32,900 nt of DNA from Armatimonadota bacterium (GTDB lineage: Bacteria > Armatimonadota > Fimbriimonadia > Fimbriimonadales > ATM1). Position 1 is the first letter of the stretch. Each line of letters begins with the position of its first letter. The stretch lies in the NCBI GenBank assembly GCA_021324165.1, contig JAJPJR010000008.1:1-32900 (forward strand). The letters are read 5' to 3'. The position numbers and the translations under genes are program-made. Below are positions 5,251 to 17,827 of this stretch, piece by piece. Under the pieces are notes generated by a model. It was not told where the DNA came from and did not search any database. It saw only the letters and a program-made list of their open reading frames with translations.

Positions 5251-6318
5251 TCATTTGCGTTCGTCGGCCAAGCGTTCGAACTCGTTGCGGTCCTTTGCTT
5301 TCATTGCGGCCTCTTCGCGGGTTACGGATTTTTCCAGAACAAGGCGCGCCAAAAACTGATCGAGCGTGTGCATGCCCAGTCTCGCGCCGGTTTGCAGAAT
5401 CGAAGAGATCTGATACGTTTTGTTTTCGCGAATCAGATTGCGGATTGCGCCCACGGCGTTCAGCACTTCGAACGCCGCGACTCGGCCGCGCCCGTCAGCG
5501 CGTTTGACCAGCGTCTGCGAAATGACGCCCACCAAATTCACCGACAGCTGCATGCGAATCTGCTGCTGTTGATGGATGGGGAACACGTCAATCACACGGT
5601 CAACGGTCTGCACGGCGTCAACGGTGTGAAGGGTTCCAAACACCAGGTGTCCTGTTTCGGCGGCGGTGATGGCGAGTTGAATCGTTTCAAGATCGCGCAT
5701 TTCGCCCACAAGAATCACATCGGGGTCTTGGCGCAGCACGAATTTCAGTGCGTTCGCAAAACTGAGCGTATCGAAATCCAACTCTCTTTGGCGGATCAGT
5801 GCTTTGTGATCTTCGTGGATGAACTCGATCGGGTCCTCAACGGTTACGATGTGGCAGGGCTCGCGCTTGTTGATGTAATCAATGCAGGCGGCTTGCGTTG
5901 TGGATTTTCCGCTTCCTGCCGGACCGGTAACAAGGATCAGCCCCCGCGGGCGTTCGCAAAACGATTTGACGATGTTGGGAAGCCCGAGGTCGGAAAGCGT
6001 TAGAATCTCGAACGGAATCACGCGAAACGCGGCTTGCACCAGCCCTTTTTGTTGATAAATGTTTCCGCGGAAGCGCGATAGTCCTTCGATCTCATAAGCG
6101 AAGTCGAGTTCGAGGTCGCGTTCGAACCGTCGCTTCTGCTGTTCGTTCACGACCTGAAAAATCTCATCGCGGGCAGTTTCCGGCGTGAAAGGCTGTTCGT
6201 CTTCCAACTGAATGAGTTCGCCGTGAATGCGCACATACGGCTTCGAGTCGGCCTTGATGTGAAGGTCGGACGCAAGCATCTCCACGGTGCGCCGCAGAAG
6301 GGTTTCGATCCTACCCAT
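5251..6318 (-). CDS. pilT: Type IV pilus twitching motility ATPase PilT (third of three)
   Basis: This 355-aa GspE/PilT-superfamily hexameric ATPase is expected to power pilus retraction at the inner membrane. It shows an N-terminal PAS-like domain (ASDLHIKADSKPYVRIHGEL), Walker A GPAGSGKST (about 132-140), Asp box TVEDPIEFIH, Walker B DPDVILVGEMRD, His box ETGHLVFGTLHT, and a perfect AIRNLIRE motif, needed for retraction in PilT. I chose ATG 6318 over 6336 because GGAGGG sits 8 nt upstream and because it gives an 8-bp ATGGGTAG overlap with the previous pilT. Of the three paralogues it is closest to classical PilT in the C-terminal motif. Confidence 0.95.
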   Translation of the reverse strand: MGRIETLLRRTVEMLASDLHIKADSKPYVRIHGELIQLEDEQPFTPETARDEIFQVVNEQQKRRFERDLELDFAYEIEGLSRFRGNIYQQKGLVQAAFRVIPFEILTLSDLGLPNIVKSFCERPRGLILVTGPAGSGKSTTQAACIDYINKREPCHIVTVEDPIEFIHEDHKALIRQRELDFDTLSFANALKFVLRQDPDVILVGEMRDLETIQLAITAAETGHLVFGTLHTVDAVQTVDRVIDVFPIHQQQQIRMQLSVNLVGVISQTLVKRADGRGRVAAFEVLNAVGAIRNLIRENKTYQISSILQTGARLGMHTLDQFLARLVLEKSVTREEAAMKAKDRNEFERLADERK

Positions 6319-7402
6319 TTTGCGAGCCCTCCACAAGTCCCAAGTTCATCGCGCGCCGCGAGAATTCCGAGGGCGCCTGGCTCTTTGCGAGCGCGTTTTC
6401 ATAATCCACCACGCCGTCTTTCACAAGCGAGAGCAGATGTCCGTCGAGCGTCTGCATGCCGTGTTCGGCGCCGGTTTGAATGTCCAGATAAAGCTGGTGG
6501 GTTTTGCCTTCGCGAATCAGCGTGCGAACCGCGGGTGTGCAGACCAGAATCTCGAACGCGGCGGTTCTTCCTGTTCCGTCCTTTGTGGGCAGAAGCGTTT
6601 GGCTGACCACGGCCTGCAGCGTTACGGAAAGCTGAGTGCGAATCTGCGCCTGCTGATCGGGCGGGAAAACGTCCACAATGCGGTCAATGGTCTGCGCGGC
6701 ATCAACGGTGTGCAAAGTGGACATCACCAGGTGTCCAGTTTCGGCTGCGGTGATTGCCAGTTGGATGGTTTCCAGATCGCGCATCTCACCGACCAGAATC
6801 ACGTCAGGATTCTGCCGCATAACGTGTTTCAGCGCATCGGCAAAACTGTGGGTGTCCACACCGAGTTCACGCTGATTGATGATGCTCACTTTGTCAGTGT
6901 GCATATATTCGATCGGGTCTTCGATGGTCATCACGTGCAGTTTGCGGTTCGTGTTGATGTGGTGCACCATCGCCGCAAGGGTTGTGCTTTTGCCCGAGCC
7001 TGTGGGGCCGGTTACCAAGATCAGGCCCCGAGGCAGAAGCGCAAGAGTCTTTGTAACTTCAGGGAGTCCGAGTTCGTCAATCGTCCGAATTTTGAAAGGG
7101 ATGACACGGAACACCGCGCCCATCTCTCCCCGCTGCCACAGCATGTTCACGCGAAATCGGCTGAGTCCGGGAACTTGATACGAAAGGTCGAGTTCCTTGT
7201 ACGATTCGAGCCTTGCCCATCGTTCTTCGTTCAGAACGGATCGCAGCAGCGTTTCTGACTGTTCAGAAGTCAGCACGTCGTGATCGGTGCGCGTGAGTTT
7301 GCCATGCACACGCATGATGGGCGGGAGGCCGGGTTTGATATGGAGGTCGCTCGCGTCCCGGCTGACGAGTTCCCTCAGAAGATCGTCTATCGTCGGCTGC
7401 AT
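6311..7402 (-). CDS. pilT: Type IV pilus twitching motility ATPase PilT (second of three)
   Basis: This 363-aa protein has the full PilT set: ASDLHIKPGLPPIMRVHGKL near the N-terminus, Walker A GPTGSGKST (132-140), Asp box TIEDPIEYMH, Walker B NPDVILVGEMRD, and His box ETGHLVMSTLHT. The retraction motif reads AVRTLIRE, a mild variant of AIRNLIRE. The start ATG 7402 lies 6 bp after the stop of the first pilT, and its 3' end overlaps the third, so the three form one transcription unit. Because it resembles the third copy (long shared blocks such as DLETIQLAITAAETGHLV), the two probably arose by a more recent duplication than the first. Confidence 0.95.
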   Translation of the reverse strand: MQPTIDDLLRELVSRDASDLHIKPGLPPIMRVHGKLTRTDHDVLTSEQSETLLRSVLNEERWARLESYKELDLSYQVPGLSRFRVNMLWQRGEMGAVFRVIPFKIRTIDELGLPEVTKTLALLPRGLILVTGPTGSGKSTTLAAMVHHINTNRKLHVMTIEDPIEYMHTDKVSIINQRELGVDTHSFADALKHVMRQNPDVILVGEMRDLETIQLAITAAETGHLVMSTLHTVDAAQTIDRIVDVFPPDQQAQIRTQLSVTLQAVVSQTLLPTKDGTGRTAAFEILVCTPAVRTLIREGKTHQLYLDIQTGAEHGMQTLDGHLLSLVKDGVVDYENALAKSQAPSEFSRRAMNLGLVEGSQNG

Positions 7403-7408
7403 TTGACC

Positions 7409-8488
7409 CTAACGGCGCAAAAGCTGCCTGAGTTCAGAAACGATTCCGGCGTAATTGAGTGCGACCTCTTCGGTGATCACTCCGGCTTTGACGTACTTCA
7501 GCAGGCTTTGATTCATGGTTTGCATGCCCCAGAAGTGTCCTTCCGAGATGGCGTGATAAAGATCTCCGAACTGACCGTCTTCGATCATCTTAGAAACGGT
7601 CGGTGTGCAGATCATCACTTCGCACGCGCAAACGCGGCCTGCGCCGTCGGCCCGGGGCACCAGTTTTTGCGCAATCACGGCTCGAAGCGAGCCGGATAGG
7701 CGCATGCACAGGTGATTCTTTTCGTGGGGCGGGAACATGTTCACAATTCGGTCGAGGGTTTCCGATGCGCTTGGCGTGTGAACGGTCGAGAACACCAAGT
7801 GGCCGGTTTCACCGGCTTGAAGCGCGACGTTCATGGTGTCGGGGTCGCGCATTTCGCCCACCAGAATCACGTCGGGCGCCTCGCGGAGCACCGCACGCAT
7901 AGCGACGAAAAAGTCGGTGGTATCAATATGCACTTCGCGCTGGCTGACGTAGGATGCCTTATCGCTGTGCACGAACTCGATCGGGTCTTCGATGGTAACG
8001 ATGTGGCATGCGCGGGTTCGATTGATTAGATCGAGAAGCGCTGCCAACGTGGTGGTCTTTCCGCATCCGGTCGGCCCGGTGAACAACACCAGTCCGAGGC
8101 GGTGTTTGGCGAGTTCGTTTAGAACGGGCGGAAGTCCGAGTTGTTCGATGCTAAGGATTTCGATCGGAATAAGCCTGAAAACTCCGGCGACGGTGCCTCG
8201 TTGAAAGTAAAGGTTGGCTCGGATACGGATTTTGTCTTCGACGCCGAATGCGAGGTCCATCTCCAAGGTCTCTTCGAATTTCTGCAGCTGCTTCGGCGTC
8301 ATGGTGCCGTGAATCAGCCTTCGAGCAGTCTCCTCGTCAATGACTCCCCAATCGCCATCGAGCGGCTTGACGAACGCGTGCTGTCTAACTTTTGGGACCG
8401 AGCCGGCCTTGATGAAAAGGTCGGATGCTTTCATCTCATAAGCGATGAGGAGCAGGTCGTGTAGCGTTGCTTCCGATATGCTGGGCAT
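7409..8488 (-). CDS. PilT/PilU-like pilus retraction ATPase (first of three)
   Basis: This 359-aa GspE/PilT-superfamily ATPase has intact nucleotide-binding motifs: Walker A GPTGCGKTT (about 138-146), Asp box TIEDPIEFVH, Walker B APDVILVGEMRD, and His box ETGHLVFSTVHT. The AIRNLIRE position reads TVSKMIED, which is strongly altered, as in PilT paralogues of the PilU class that assist rather than replace PilT. The N-terminal domain (ASDLFIKAGSVPKVRQHAFV) is also the most divergent of the three. The start ATG 8488 has AGAGGA 10 nt upstream. It lies 24 bp after an exported membrane protein in the same operon. PilU-like assignment is an inference from the one motif. Confidence 0.9.
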   Translation of the reverse strand: MPSISEATLHDLLLIAYEMKASDLFIKAGSVPKVRQHAFVKPLDGDWGVIDEETARRLIHGTMTPKQLQKFEETLEMDLAFGVEDKIRIRANLYFQRGTVAGVFRLIPIEILSIEQLGLPPVLNELAKHRLGLVLFTGPTGCGKTTTLAALLDLINRTRACHIVTIEDPIEFVHSDKASYVSQREVHIDTTDFFVAMRAVLREAPDVILVGEMRDPDTMNVALQAGETGHLVFSTVHTPSASETLDRIVNMFPPHEKNHLCMRLSGSLRAVIAQKLVPRADGAGRVCACEVMICTPTVSKMIEDGQFGDLYHAISEGHFWGMQTMNQSLLKYVKAGVITEEVALNYAGIVSELRQLLRR

Positions 8489-14116: not shown

Positions 14117-15373
14117 CTACGCCGCTTCGTCTTTTTCGATGGCGCGCAGCGATGCAGCCTTCAGCAGCGCGGCGGCGTTCTTGCCTGATTCCGGATACCA
14201 CGCTTCTCCGATCAAAACGGCCAGCCCGGTGTTGGCAAGGTTGGATCGCGTCATCCAAGCGCGCAGTTTGCCGCGCAGGTTTTCCATCACCACCTCTACG
14301 TTCTTTCCCGCCCCTGGCACGATGATTCCGAACCCGCTTTGACCCATGCGTCCGATCAGATCGAGCCTGCGGACGTTTTGGCGAAGAAACATCGCGGCGT
14401 CGGCAAGAAACGTCGAAACCGCGGCCTGTCCATAGAAGGAACCGAACGTATCGAGTCCTGTGAATTCGAGTCTGAGGAATCCAACCGACGAATGATCGCA
14501 CGCCGCGCGCGAACACGATTCATCAAGCATCGAGCGCGTGTGGGTTTCGGTGTACACGCCGGTCTGCGGGTCAATGATCTCGTGCAGCAGGTTGTCGGAG
14601 TGCTCGCGCAGCCGAAGGTCGTTGCGTTCCTCTTCCGCCAGTTTCTGCCGCAGTTTTGAAAGCGACTGGCGCAAAATGTGCGAAACGTAGTTGCCTGAAA
14701 TTCCCAATTGTGCGGCGATTTCGGTTTGGTTTAGGGATTCGAAATGAAACAGATACAGCGCTTTCTGTTCCACTTCTCGCAGTTCGGCAAACGCCCGTTC
14801 GAGCACAACTCGGTCTTCGACTGAAATCTGATCGCGGTCATCATCGGCGAATTCGGGGTTTTCGTGATCATCGTCATCGGAAGCGTTGTGGCTTGAAAGG
14901 CTCGCAACTTTAAAAAGGTCGTCGGTGGCGAGCACTTCCTGCACGGTCTCTTTGGGCACACCGGTTTTTTTTGCGATGGCTTGGGGGGTGGGGCTGTCGC
15001 CGCATTCCTGCTGCAGCTGCGCCGCGGCTCGATTCACTTTGTGCCGAACTTCCTGCAGCCACGCGGGTTCGCGGATAATCCGCGCGCGATCGCGGAGATA
15101 ATGTTTGATCGCCCCGGTTACAAGGTGCGTTGCATACGTGTTGAACCGCACCCCTTTTGAAGGTTCATAAAGGTTCAGGGCATTCAGCAGCCCTGTATAT
15201 CCAACCTGCACCAGGTCATCGTACAGTTCGAGTCCGGCGTATTTACGTGCCGCTCGCTGAACGAGATCGCGGTACGCTGCGACAATCTTATCCCGCAAGT
15301 CGGATTTTTTTGTGCGAACGTATTCCATGACGATCGCCTCGGCATAATCGTTTTGACTGAGTCCTTCGGACAC
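14117..15373 (-). CDS. SigB/FliA/WhiG-type sigma factor fused to a degenerate GGDEF domain
   Basis: This 418-aa protein joins two modules. Residues 1-250 are a sigma-70 factor: region 2 at about 30-100 (DDLVQVGYTGLLNALNLYEP, RFNTYATHLVTGAIKHYLRD), region 3 at about 102-160 with its own helix-turn-helix (TPQAIAKKTGVPKETVQEVL), a very acidic linker (164-183), and region 4 at about 184-247 (LNQTEIAAQLGISGNYVSHIL). Residues about 262-418 have a GGDEF fold: DPQTGVYTETHTR matches the DxLTGLxNRR entry, and GQSGF at 344-348 replaces GGDEF. The metal- and substrate-binding residues are lost, but RRLD (335-338) keeps the RxxD inhibitory-site spacing of five residues. It likely binds promoters under control of a ligand or partner at the C-terminus. 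The start GTG 15373 has AGGGAG 7 nt upstream. It follows pilC by 78 bp. Confidence 0.92.
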   Translation of the reverse strand: MSEGLSQNDYAEAIVMEYVRTKKSDLRDKIVAAYRDLVQRAARKYAGLELYDDLVQVGYTGLLNALNLYEPSKGVRFNTYATHLVTGAIKHYLRDRARIIREPAWLQEVRHKVNRAAAQLQQECGDSPTPQAIAKKTGVPKETVQEVLATDDLFKVASLSSHNASDDDDHENPEFADDDRDQISVEDRVVLERAFAELREVEQKALYLFHFESLNQTEIAAQLGISGNYVSHILRQSLSKLRQKLAEEERNDLRLREHSDNLLHEIIDPQTGVYTETHTRSMLDESCSRAACDHSSVGFLRLEFTGLDTFGSFYGQAAVSTFLADAAMFLRQNVRRLDLIGRMGQSGFGIIVPGAGKNVEVVMENLRGKLRAWMTRSNLANTGLAVLIGEAWYPESGKNAAALLKAASLRAIEKDEAA

Positions 15374-15451: not shown

Positions 15452-16669
15452 TTAGTTGATCGAATTGACGAGTTTGAAAATCGGCGTCATGACTGAAATG
15501 GCGATGAACCCGACAACAACGCCCATGAAGATGATCAGCATCGGCTCGATCATCGAAGTCAGGCCTTTAACCGTGGCCTCGACTTCGCGGTCATAAAAGT
15601 CGCCGATCTTGACGAGCATTTCGCTCAGGCGGCCGCTTTCTTCGCCGATGTCAATCATGTGCGTTACCATGCTGGGAAACAGGCCGCTCGTCGAAAGCGG
15701 TTGACTCAGGCGCTGGCCTTCTCGAATCGAGTTGCGCGCGGCGTCTATGGCATTCACAAGCACCCGGTTGCCGCTGGTCTCTCCCACAATTTCAAGCGAA
15801 CGCAGCATCGGCACACCCGAGCTGATGAGCGTTCCAAACGTGCGCGAAAACCTTGCGATGGACATTTTCAAAACCAGTTCGCCCACCACGGGGATGCGCA
15901 GCTTCAAAAAGTCGAGCTGGTAGCCCCCTTTTTCGGTTTTCGACCAGATTTTGTACGCGATGAACACGCCTGCCGCCACCGCGAACAACACCCACCAATA
16001 GGACTGGAAAAACAGCCCGATGTTGAACAGAAAGTTGGTCACAGGCGGGATCTCCACGTTCATTCCATCGAAAATCTCCTTGAACTTCGGCAGAACGAAC
16101 GTAAACAGCGCAAACAGCATGATCACCGAAAAGATGAGCACCAAGACCGGATACATCATCGCGCTCTTGATCTTCGAGCGGACTTCAAGTTCATATTCCA
16201 AGAATGCGGCCAGCCGCTCCAGAATCGTGTCGAGAATGCCTCCGAGTTCCGCCGCTCGAATCATGTTCACATAAAGCTTATTGAACACGTTCGGGTGCTT
16301 CGTCATAGACTCGTTGAGGGTCAGGCCGCCTTTCACGTCAATCGAAACATCGCTGGCGGCCTCGCGCAGCACCGGGTCTTTGGTTTGGGTTGCCAAAATC
16401 TCAAGGCACCTGAGAATCGGAATACCGGCATCAACCATCGTGGCAAACTGTCTGCTGAAGATCACAACGTTCTTCAGCTTTGGTTTTGTGGGCTTCAAAA
16501 ACGAGCGGCCTTTTCCGCCAGCGGCTCGGCCTTTTGCCTTTTGCACGTTGGTGATGTGAAACTGCTGATCATGCAGTTTTTTCAGGGCCAACTGCTCGGT
16601 CTCGGCCTCGATAACGCCGTTGATGGTTCGGCCCGAAGGGTCAATTGCGGAATAACTAAATCGTGGCAT
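15452..16669 (-). CDS. pilC: Type IV pilus inner-membrane platform protein PilC (T2SS F family)
   Basis: This 405-aa protein has two GspF/PilC repeats, each a cytoplasmic helical bundle followed by membrane helices. The first repeat contains FSRQFATMVDAGIPILRCLEILATQ and the second ARFSRTFGTLISSGVPMLRSLEIVG as adjoining blocks. Three hydrophobic helices are visible: near 170-192 (VLVLIFSVIMLFALFTFV), 223-243 (WWVLFAVAAGVFIAYKIW), and 375-398 (LIIFMGVVVGFIAISVMTP). The short N-terminal domain (RFSYSAIDPSGRTINGVIEA) is typical. PilC is the platform on which the PilB and PilT motors assemble or retract the pilus. pilB is not in this window, and the three pilT genes are 7 kb away. A 16-bp palindrome lies 10 bp before the ATG. 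Confidence 0.96.
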   Translation of the reverse strand: MPRFSYSAIDPSGRTINGVIEAETEQLALKKLHDQQFHITNVQKAKGRAAGGKGRSFLKPTKPKLKNVVIFSRQFATMVDAGIPILRCLEILATQTKDPVLREAASDVSIDVKGGLTLNESMTKHPNVFNKLYVNMIRAAELGGILDTILERLAAFLEYELEVRSKIKSAMMYPVLVLIFSVIMLFALFTFVLPKFKEIFDGMNVEIPPVTNFLFNIGLFFQSYWWVLFAVAAGVFIAYKIWSKTEKGGYQLDFLKLRIPVVGELVLKMSIARFSRTFGTLISSGVPMLRSLEIVGETSGNRVLVNAIDAARNSIREGQRLSQPLSTSGLFPSMVTHMIDIGEESGRLSEMLVKIGDFYDREVEATVKGLTSMIEPMLIIFMGVVVGFIAISVMTPIFKLVNSIN

Positions 16670-16679
16670 GAGTTTGCTC

Positions 16680-16699
16680 GCGCGAACGTTCGCGCCTAC
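16680..16699 (-). repeat. REP-like palindrome with GTAG head, 5' of pilC
   Basis: Positions 16680-16695 form a perfect 16-bp palindrome (GCGCGAAC / GTTCGCGC). Read on the minus strand it is preceded directly by the tetranucleotide GTAG (complement of 16696-16699). A GTAG head plus a palindrome is the layout of REP elements moved by RAYT transposases. It lies 10 bp before the pilC start codon, so it could also act as an operator or as an mRNA hairpin near the start. Only one copy is in the window. Confidence 0.55.
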
Positions 16700-16855
16700 T
16701 TACATCGTCGGCCTTTAGCGAGTCGTTTTGAACCAGAAAATCGAAATCGAACCCAGTTCTCACAAAACCCGCATTTGTGCGAAGATTGAGCCTGCAGAAT
16801 CTGAATTTGACGGTTTGCGGGGCCGACAATCCAACATGGGTGATTAGCGCCCTTT

Positions 16856-17827
16856 ATGTTTTTGGAACGGATTGCTCGTTATGGTGTGCCCGTGATGGCG
16901 ACAGCGGGGCTGTTCGTCATCCTGCGAAACTTTATTGAACTGTCTGAGGGTCTGGCGCTTGCGATCGCCTGCCTTATCTCTGCAATCGTGTGCGGCCTTG
17001 CAATGAATCTTCGCGAAGAGCGTTGGGCAGCCGATTGGACGCGCCTGGCAAAAATGCTGGCAGACGGCGACGACGGAATCCGATTCAGCGCAAAAGGCTC
17101 AAAGAAAACTTTGGCGCGCCAACTTTCGGTTGTGGCAGAAAAGTTAGAGTTCGAGCGCAAGTATCGCCGCGGCCTCGAAGACTCCGCCAACCGAAGGCTC
17201 GAAGCGATGGACCTGGTCAACAGTCAGCTTCAAGAGTCGAACTCCGAAACCAAAAAACTTTTGGAACGGCTTGAATGGCAGAACGCCGCACTCGCTTCGC
17301 TCAACGACCGGCTGGTGCAGCTTGCCTACACCGACGGCCTCACCGGCGTAAAAAACCACCGAACGTTTCAGGAGATGTTTCGATCTGCGTTCGCCAATGC
17401 GAAACGGTACCGCCAGCCTCTCTCGCTGCTGCTTCTTGACTTCGATGACTTTAAGAAACTGAACGATGCGCACGGACACCTGACCGGCGACGCCGTGCTG
17501 AAACACGCTGCGCGGATGCTCACCGCTCGCACGCGAGAGAGCGACGTTGTGGCCCGCTACGGCGGGGAAGAGTTCGCAATCGTGCTTCCAAACACCGATT
17601 TGAACGGTGCGATGGCACTGGCGGAATCCATCCGCGTTGACATCGCGAAACGCGCCGTTGTGCCGTTTACGGTGAGCATCGGATGCGCATGCTATGCCGA
17701 GGGCGTCAAAACTCCAGATCGGCTGATCGCTTTGGCCGACGAGTCGCTGTACCAAGCCAAGCGCACAGGCCGGAACCGGATAGCATCGGTTCAGGCCGAA
17801 CCAGAAAAGTTCCGCGGCAGCGCCTAA
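16856..17827 (+). CDS. Membrane-bound diguanylate cyclase (GGEEF)
   Basis: This 323-aa protein has two transmembrane helices (about 10-24 and 32-50), a cytoplasmic coiled coil (about 90-155, rich in Glu/Lys/Leu), and a GGDEF domain (about 155-310). The domain shows DGLTGVKNHRTF, the metal-binding DFDDFKKLNDAHGH, and the active-site GGEEF at 236-240. RESD at 227-230 is the RxxD inhibitory site, five residues before GGEEF. All residues expected for c-di-GMP synthesis from two GTP and for product inhibition are present. It has no recognisable sensor domain between membrane and coiled coil. It is divergent from pilC and the sigma-GGDEF gene over a 186-bp gap, which suggests a shared control circuit. 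Confidence 0.93.
   Translation: MFLERIARYGVPVMATAGLFVILRNFIELSEGLALAIACLISAIVCGLAMNLREERWAADWTRLAKMLADGDDGIRFSAKGSKKTLARQLSVVAEKLEFERKYRRGLEDSANRRLEAMDLVNSQLQESNSETKKLLERLEWQNAALASLNDRLVQLAYTDGLTGVKNHRTFQEMFRSAFANAKRYRQPLSLLLLDFDDFKKLNDAHGHLTGDAVLKHAARMLTARTRESDVVARYGGEEFAIVLPNTDLNGAMALAESIRVDIAKRAVVPFTVSIGCACYAEGVKTPDRLIALADESLYQAKRTGRNRIASVQAEPEKFRGSA

Follow-up and report, generated by a model that had tools for sequence, protein, structure and literature searches.

The window (the whole 32,900-nt stretch of Armatimonadota DNA analysed here, part of a 2.3 Mb draft genome) carries on its minus strand a gene for a sigma factor whose chain runs on into a degenerate GGDEF domain, in a neighbourhood of type IV pilus genes and next to a divergent diguanylate cyclase gene (Table 1).

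Table 1. Features of the sigma-GGDEF locus and its surroundings, with positions in the window.
Feature	Position	Strand	Evidence or remark
PilT/PilU-family ATPase genes, tandem array of three	5251-8488	-	each above NCBIfam cut-off
Sigma-GGDEF fusion protein, 418 aa, GTG start at 15373	14117..15373	-	ORF, Pfam, full-length orthologues
Sigma-70 region 2, residues 31-98	15080..15283	-	Pfam PF04542, 5e-14
Sigma-70 region 3, residues 108-179	14837..15052	-	Pfam PF04539, 5.2e-10
Sigma-70 region 4, residues 194-243	14645..14794	-	Pfam PF04545, 2.9e-10
Single modelled helix (stalk), residues 227-259	14597..14695	-	AF2 model
Degenerate GGDEF domain, residues 267-408	14150..14575	-	Pfam PF00990, 2e-13; fold Z 18.4 to PleD
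R289, secondary I-site Arg, equivalent to PleD R313 (in trans in PleD)	14507..14509	-	107/108 in the family, 15/74 in active DGCs
RRLD, residues 335-338, primary I-site RxxD, equivalent to PleD R359 and D362	14360..14371	-	108/108
GQSGF, residues 344-348, dead GGDEF motif	14330..14344	-	0/108 members with GG[DE]EF
N365, position of PleD R390	14279..14281	-	Arg in 103/108 relatives, lost in the window copy
pilC, inner-membrane platform protein of type IV pili, next gene upstream, co-directional	15452..16669	-	NCBIfam PilC, 4e-127
Promoter-like -10 element CCGACGATG, 42 nt before pilC	16703..16711	-	counterpart of CCGACAATC upstream of relatives' pilC
CCGACAATCCAACATGGG, same element before the divergent diguanylate cyclase	16823..16840	+	only strict match in the window genome
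Diguanylate cyclase with GGEEF intact, next to the pilC-sigma pair and divergent from it	16856..17827	+	Pfam, 1.5e-44

The gene product and its fold

The initial annotation had described one uninterrupted 418-aa frame in which sigma regions 2, 3 and 4 are followed by a GGDEF fold. The frame was recovered on the minus strand, the plus-strand translation showing many stops, and the order of domains in a single chain was confirmed by Pfam, with each of the four matches above its gathering cut-off. The best NCBIfam match of the sigma part was SigBFG (4e-49 over residues 25-245), with 167 bits against a cut-off of 234, so that the SigB/F/G subfamily is assigned by best match only. Sigma regions 2, 3 and 4 are intact and retain the invariant core residues, and the putative core-binding and recognition-helix residues are conserved. 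Most of the fusion family shares the recognition helix of region 4 (ISxNYVSHILRQS), and this implies a single promoter class.

In the full-length AF2 model, a helix (residues 227-259) extends from region 4 toward the GGDEF domain, although the relative placement of the domains is uncertain (pTM 0.41) and no domain-domain geometry is therefore claimed. A Foldseek comparison of the whole model with the PDB gave only sigma-type proteins among the top matches listed, and for this reason the GGDEF domain was modelled separately (AF2, 43 sequences; pLDDT 95.4, pTM 0.89). The resulting model aligned with c-di-GMP-bound PleD (2wb4) at a Z of 18.4 over 150 residues in VIA-align, and a PDB search with the domain profile retrieved GGDEF structures (E 7e-31). 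Together with the Pfam match (2e-13), the alignment to PleD upholds the GGDEF fold assigned to the C-terminal part in the initial annotation.

That the gene is a sequencing, assembly or annotation artefact fusing two genes, or a decaying pseudogene, deserves next to no credence. In-frame stops do occur in a few members (in genomes G047, G117 and G170), but an identical full-length, single-frame architecture is present in >100 independent genomes, several of which are one-contig assemblies; a frameshift, an assembly join or another artefact was ruled out on this basis. The frameshift at the junction near residue 255, which the initial annotation had named as a way in which its reading could fail, is absent, the frame being shared by these >100 genomes. 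The orthologue in G047 has an in-frame TGA at about residue 333, just ahead of the inhibitory site (I-site), and represents a pseudogene, a frameshift or a truncation.

Catalytic and inhibitory-site residues

The window copy has E303 in place of the metal-binding Asp and has lost both the GGDEF signature and the Asn/Asp that bind substrate. The losses quoted in the initial annotation were thus correct, with LEFTGLDTFGSFYGQ in place of LDxDxFK..ND..GH and GQSGF in place of GGDEF, as was the placing of RRLD five residues ahead of the degenerate motif. These losses extend to the family. In an alignment of 108 fusion members, from which the divergent members L142 and L144-L146 (RxxD or domain missing) were left out, none carried GG[DE]EF, the metal Asp was kept in 13 and the Asn in 5, and the catalytic columns ranked only 41-135 of 147 for conservation. 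Among 62 representatives sharing <50% identity, the metal Asp was present in 7. Residual cyclase activity was rejected as an explanation for the domain, the catalytic motif being found in 0/108 members.

The I-site columns gave the opposite picture. In PleD, one domain supplies R359, D362 and R390 to the inhibitory c-di-GMP site and the partner domain supplies R313 (PMC7288161); these residues align with fusion residues 335, 338, 365 and 289, respectively (the PleD sequence used differed from the PDB chains by one mismatch, outside the I-site). In the 108-member alignment, R335 and D338 were found in every member, R289 in 107 and R365 in 103, corresponding to conservation ranks of 1, 2, 3 and 7 among the 147 columns. 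The probability of four I-site columns falling within the top 7 of 147 is 1.9e-6 (hypergeometric), with the counts taken irrespective of phylogeny. In the 62 representatives, R335, D338 and R289 were all invariant and R365 was present in 57.

For comparison, the I-site residues were scored in 74 active cyclase domains, most of them encoded by ten same-class genomes, and in 5 other degenerate GGDEF domains. RxxD was present in 51/74 active DGCs, 1/5 degenerate domains and 108/108 sigma fusions, and RxxD combined with R289 in 10/74, 0/5 and 107/108, respectively. Taken singly, the equivalents of R335, D338, R289 and R342 occurred in 55, 62, 15 and 74 of the 74 active DGCs. This broader sample was used instead of a smaller control of 32 mostly best-scoring cyclases, which was biased (R in 32/32), and a published survey places RxxD in 57% of cyclases (PMC4215984). 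Because RxxD is incomplete in many active cyclases, the I-site is dispensable for the GGDEF fold. The caution in the initial annotation that the R and D also have structural roles is thereby weakened, about one quarter of same-class active cyclases being without R335, but it keeps some force: both residues are still common in active DGCs, so that their conservation alone is no proof of ligand binding. Judged from these alignments, the I-site is the feature that selection has kept in the fusion while catalysis is gone.

The window copy keeps residues 289, 335 and 338 and has N at 365, and thus retains three of the four I-site residues, a loss that had escaped the initial annotation. It also deviates from the family-typical R282 and E286 (M282 and S286). 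With the R390 equivalent, R282 and E286 all missing from its sequence, this member may bind c-di-GMP weakly. Helix alpha-1 of the fusion family carries a near-invariant R-L-x-E-E (282, 285, 286) that is atypical of active cyclases and has no known ligand contact; the R282/E285/E286 cluster is possibly an interface with the sigma part. Genome G188 encodes a second, divergent sigma-GGDEF copy (L142, 2395-3787) in which the Arg of RxxD (THIEDV) and much of the motif set are lost, and which its sequence marks as a possible non-binding paralogue.

Distribution, gene neighbourhood and diguanylate cyclases

Full-length orthologues, covering query residues ~1-415 in one frame, were found in 97/113 genomes and 45/47 genera of the class (Fimbriimonadales relatives), and many further Armatimonadota families contained them at E values from 1e-147 to ~1e-90. 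Named orthologues belong to Armatimonadota, with Fimbriimonadaceae and Chthonomonadaceae bacteria among them. In families f39-f45 of this phylum, mostly just a stand-alone sigma factor was seen. In families f6 and f17, three sigma proteins (L144, L145 and L146) have a GGDEF part that is very divergent, cut off or missing, with a lysine-rich tail in its place at the end of L146. No fusion was found in 386 cyanobacterial genomes, where none of the best four candidates per genome matched past query residue 284. The distribution of the sequences indicates that the sigma-GGDEF fusion is old within Armatimonadota. Where the initial annotation had a single protein in view, the genomes show a family of long standing that is associated with type IV pilus genes.

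On the same strand, pilC is the next gene upstream in nearly all loci of the class and in members of several other families, often preceded by pilT; it is not adjacent in the families of L128-L130, L133-L139 and a few others. Clusters of pilT like the three-gene tandem of the window recur in relatives. A neighbouring cyclase gene was found in few loci, namely the window and L026. In the window, the two strands of the divergent intergenic region between pilC and the cyclase (16669-16856) each have a sigma28-like CCGAC(A/G)AT element. Some 45-75 nt ahead of pilC, relatives have a conserved element, [TG]CCGACAAT[CT], with 40/71 loci scoring at least 12 compared with 7.5% of shuffled sequences, and family f2 has TAAAGTTT-N11-TGCCCAAAATA ahead of pilT. 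These upstream elements resemble the flagellar/WhiG consensus, TAAA...GCCGATAA (PMC8325347). In its strict form, CCGACAATYN3-5WGGG, the element occurs only 0-7 times per genome and was found in relatives (L228-L254) before pilC, fliS, motA, a gene for a PilZ protein and genes for zf-HC2 zinc-finger proteins. This suggests a WhiG/FliA-like regulon in which flagellar and pilus genes are combined with c-di-GMP genes. Autoregulation of the fusion gene through the pilC promoter element was considered and is not supported, since the element is sigma28/WhiG-like (GCCGATAA) and also precedes fliS, motA, the PilZ gene and the cyclase, and since the window genome encodes a separate WhiG-type sigma factor. 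The pilC-sigma pair probably belongs to a WhiG/FliA-like motility regulon.

The presence of the fusion was further compared with that of diguanylate cyclases. All 97 fusion-bearing genomes of the class encode a strong cyclase (best E at most ~1e-41), and the fusion is absent from all six class genomes without a GGDEF domain at E 1e-10. This co-absence has a one-sided hypergeometric probability of 3e-6 and comes from two lineages only (genus g2 of family f1 and part of genus g10). The six cyclase-less genomes retain PilT-family ATPases (6/6) and T2SSF/PilC-type proteins (5/6). Loss of the sigma factor as a consequence of pilus loss was rejected, the pilT family being present in 22/22 genomes tested and T2SSF in 21/22. 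Five genomes of g10 (G037, G070, G071, G072 and G074; 4.9-6.5 Mb) have kept cyclases and pili and are without the sigma-GGDEF gene, which means that the link between fusion and cyclases is not obligate.

Proposed mechanism and comparison with known systems

The protein is probably a one-component, c-di-GMP-responsive group-3 (SigB/F/G-type) sigma factor in which a C-terminal former diguanylate cyclase domain now acts only as a receptor. Intercalated c-di-GMP would bind the retained I-site, contacted by RxxD of one protomer and the alpha-1 helix Arg of the other, and would cross-link two GGDEF domains as it does in PleD, WspR and the Thermotoga cyclase, where the I-site ligand bridges two domains via the Arg of the partner (PMC4215984, PMC2270323, PMC8041772). 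Of the I-site residues this Arg carries the most weight: since it is supplied by a second GGDEF domain in all three, ligand-driven dimerisation is predicted for the fusion, and since the sensor comes directly after region 4, cross-linking should alter the engagement of region 4 with RNA polymerase and promoter. A modelled continuous helix would join the sensor to region 4, and dimerisation would change region 4 access. High c-di-GMP may hold the sigma factor off and low c-di-GMP free it, a guess by analogy with RsiG-WhiG that is preferred only slightly to the reverse. The role would be tied to type IV pili or motility, the gene following pilC and the promoter element being common to flagellar and c-di-GMP genes. 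Whether the whole phylum uses such one-component second-messenger sigma factors, homodimerised by c-di-GMP through retired cyclase domains, free of an anti-sigma factor and wired to type IV pili or motility, is an evenly balanced proposition.

It is unlikely that the dead GGDEF domain is solely a dimerisation or docking module that binds no nucleotide, its residues being kept for the fold or for contact with region 4 or a partner protein. D338 and R342 (the latter in 74/74 active cyclases) do look structural as well, the near-invariant R282/E285/E286 cluster is family-specific, and the window copy is without R365. However, R335 is missing in 19/74 and R289 in 59/74 active cyclases, so that neither is required by the fold; it would also be hard to explain why the ligand-contacting set, including the trans Arg, is the most conserved part of the domain, or why the fusion is absent from cyclase-less genomes although pili persist there. 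It is very unlikely that the former inhibitory or active pocket now serves to sense a different nucleotide, such as c-di-AMP, cGAMP, GTP or (p)ppGpp. The title of PDB entry 9g85 (PleD with c-di-GMP and ppGpp) indicates that GGDEF proteins are able to bind further nucleotides, and the active-site pocket has been free to drift; its unconserved columns nevertheless argue against a shared ligand in that pocket, the conserved set is that of a c-di-GMP I-site, and the presence of the fusion tracks diguanylate cyclases. Marginally less credible still is docking to a real cyclase or phosphodiesterase through a GGDEF-GGDEF contact, with local enzyme partners, not bulk c-di-GMP, controlling the sigma factor. 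The GGDEF domain of Streptomyces RmdB binds sigma-WhiG in competition with its anti-sigma factor (PMC13232838), and a divergent cyclase lies beside the pilC-sigma pair in the window and in L026, but such a neighbour occurs in few loci and conservation centres on the ligand contacts. A c-di-GMP receptor within the sigma chain is the more probable reading retained here.

Control of a sigma factor normally lies with a separate anti-sigma protein. If the family binds c-di-GMP, a major bacterial second messenger would bear directly on the RNA polymerase subunit that chooses the promoter, and the switch would be one soluble protein, open to in vitro tests with just one ligand. Such a protein would also show the feedback-inhibition site of a cyclase converted to a transcription sensor, and would give a candidate regulatory switch to Armatimonadota, a phylum in which regulation has been little studied by experiment. 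The parallel with Rubrobacter, where c-di-GMP, a group-3 sigma factor and type IV pili also come together, suggests that the same wiring may have arisen by two routes. No sigma-GGDEF protein was found in the open-access literature searched, which agrees with the initial annotation, to which no described protein of this architecture was known.

Several known systems share part of this arrangement. In PleD, WspR and the Thermotoga cyclase, the I-site serves product inhibition of active enzymes, whereas no fusion member has an active motif; the shared residues are R289, R335, D338 and, in most members, R365 (PleD R313, R359, D362 and R390). PelD is a receptor with a dead GGDEF domain that binds c-di-GMP through RxxD and a further Arg (R367/D370/R402; KD 1 uM; PMC2170427). 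The fusion resembles it in its non-catalytic GGDEF-like fold and in the RxxD of its candidate ligand site. The further Arg (PleD R390/PelD R402 position, aligned here through PleD) is present in 103/108 relatives and replaced by N365 in the window copy; PelD, however, regulates polysaccharide export and has no fused sigma factor. In the RsiG-WhiG system, c-di-GMP controls a group-3 sigma factor, with type IV pili and DGC/PDE genes forming the regulon in Rubrobacter (PMC8325347). The fusion would share the ligand and the class of sigma factor, but RsiG is a separate coiled-coil anti-sigma factor whereas the fusion carries its candidate sensor, a dead GGDEF domain, within the sigma chain. None of the aligned fusion members contains the RsiG motif E(X)3S(X)2R(X)3Q(X)3D. 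A GGDEF domain also meets a group-3 sigma factor in RmdB, a phosphodiesterase that frees WhiG from RsiG and contacts WhiG through its GGDEF domain (PMC13232838), although RmdB and WhiG are two separate proteins and not one chain. ECF41 sigma factors carry a fused C-terminal regulatory domain and have no obvious anti-sigma factor (PMC3426412), but they are ECF sigma factors with an unrelated C-terminal domain and no link to c-di-GMP, whereas the fusion has region 3 and ends in a GGDEF domain. The components are therefore of known kinds (fused domains as in ECF41, PelD-type receptors, control as by RsiG), and it is their combination in one chain across a phylum that appears to be new.
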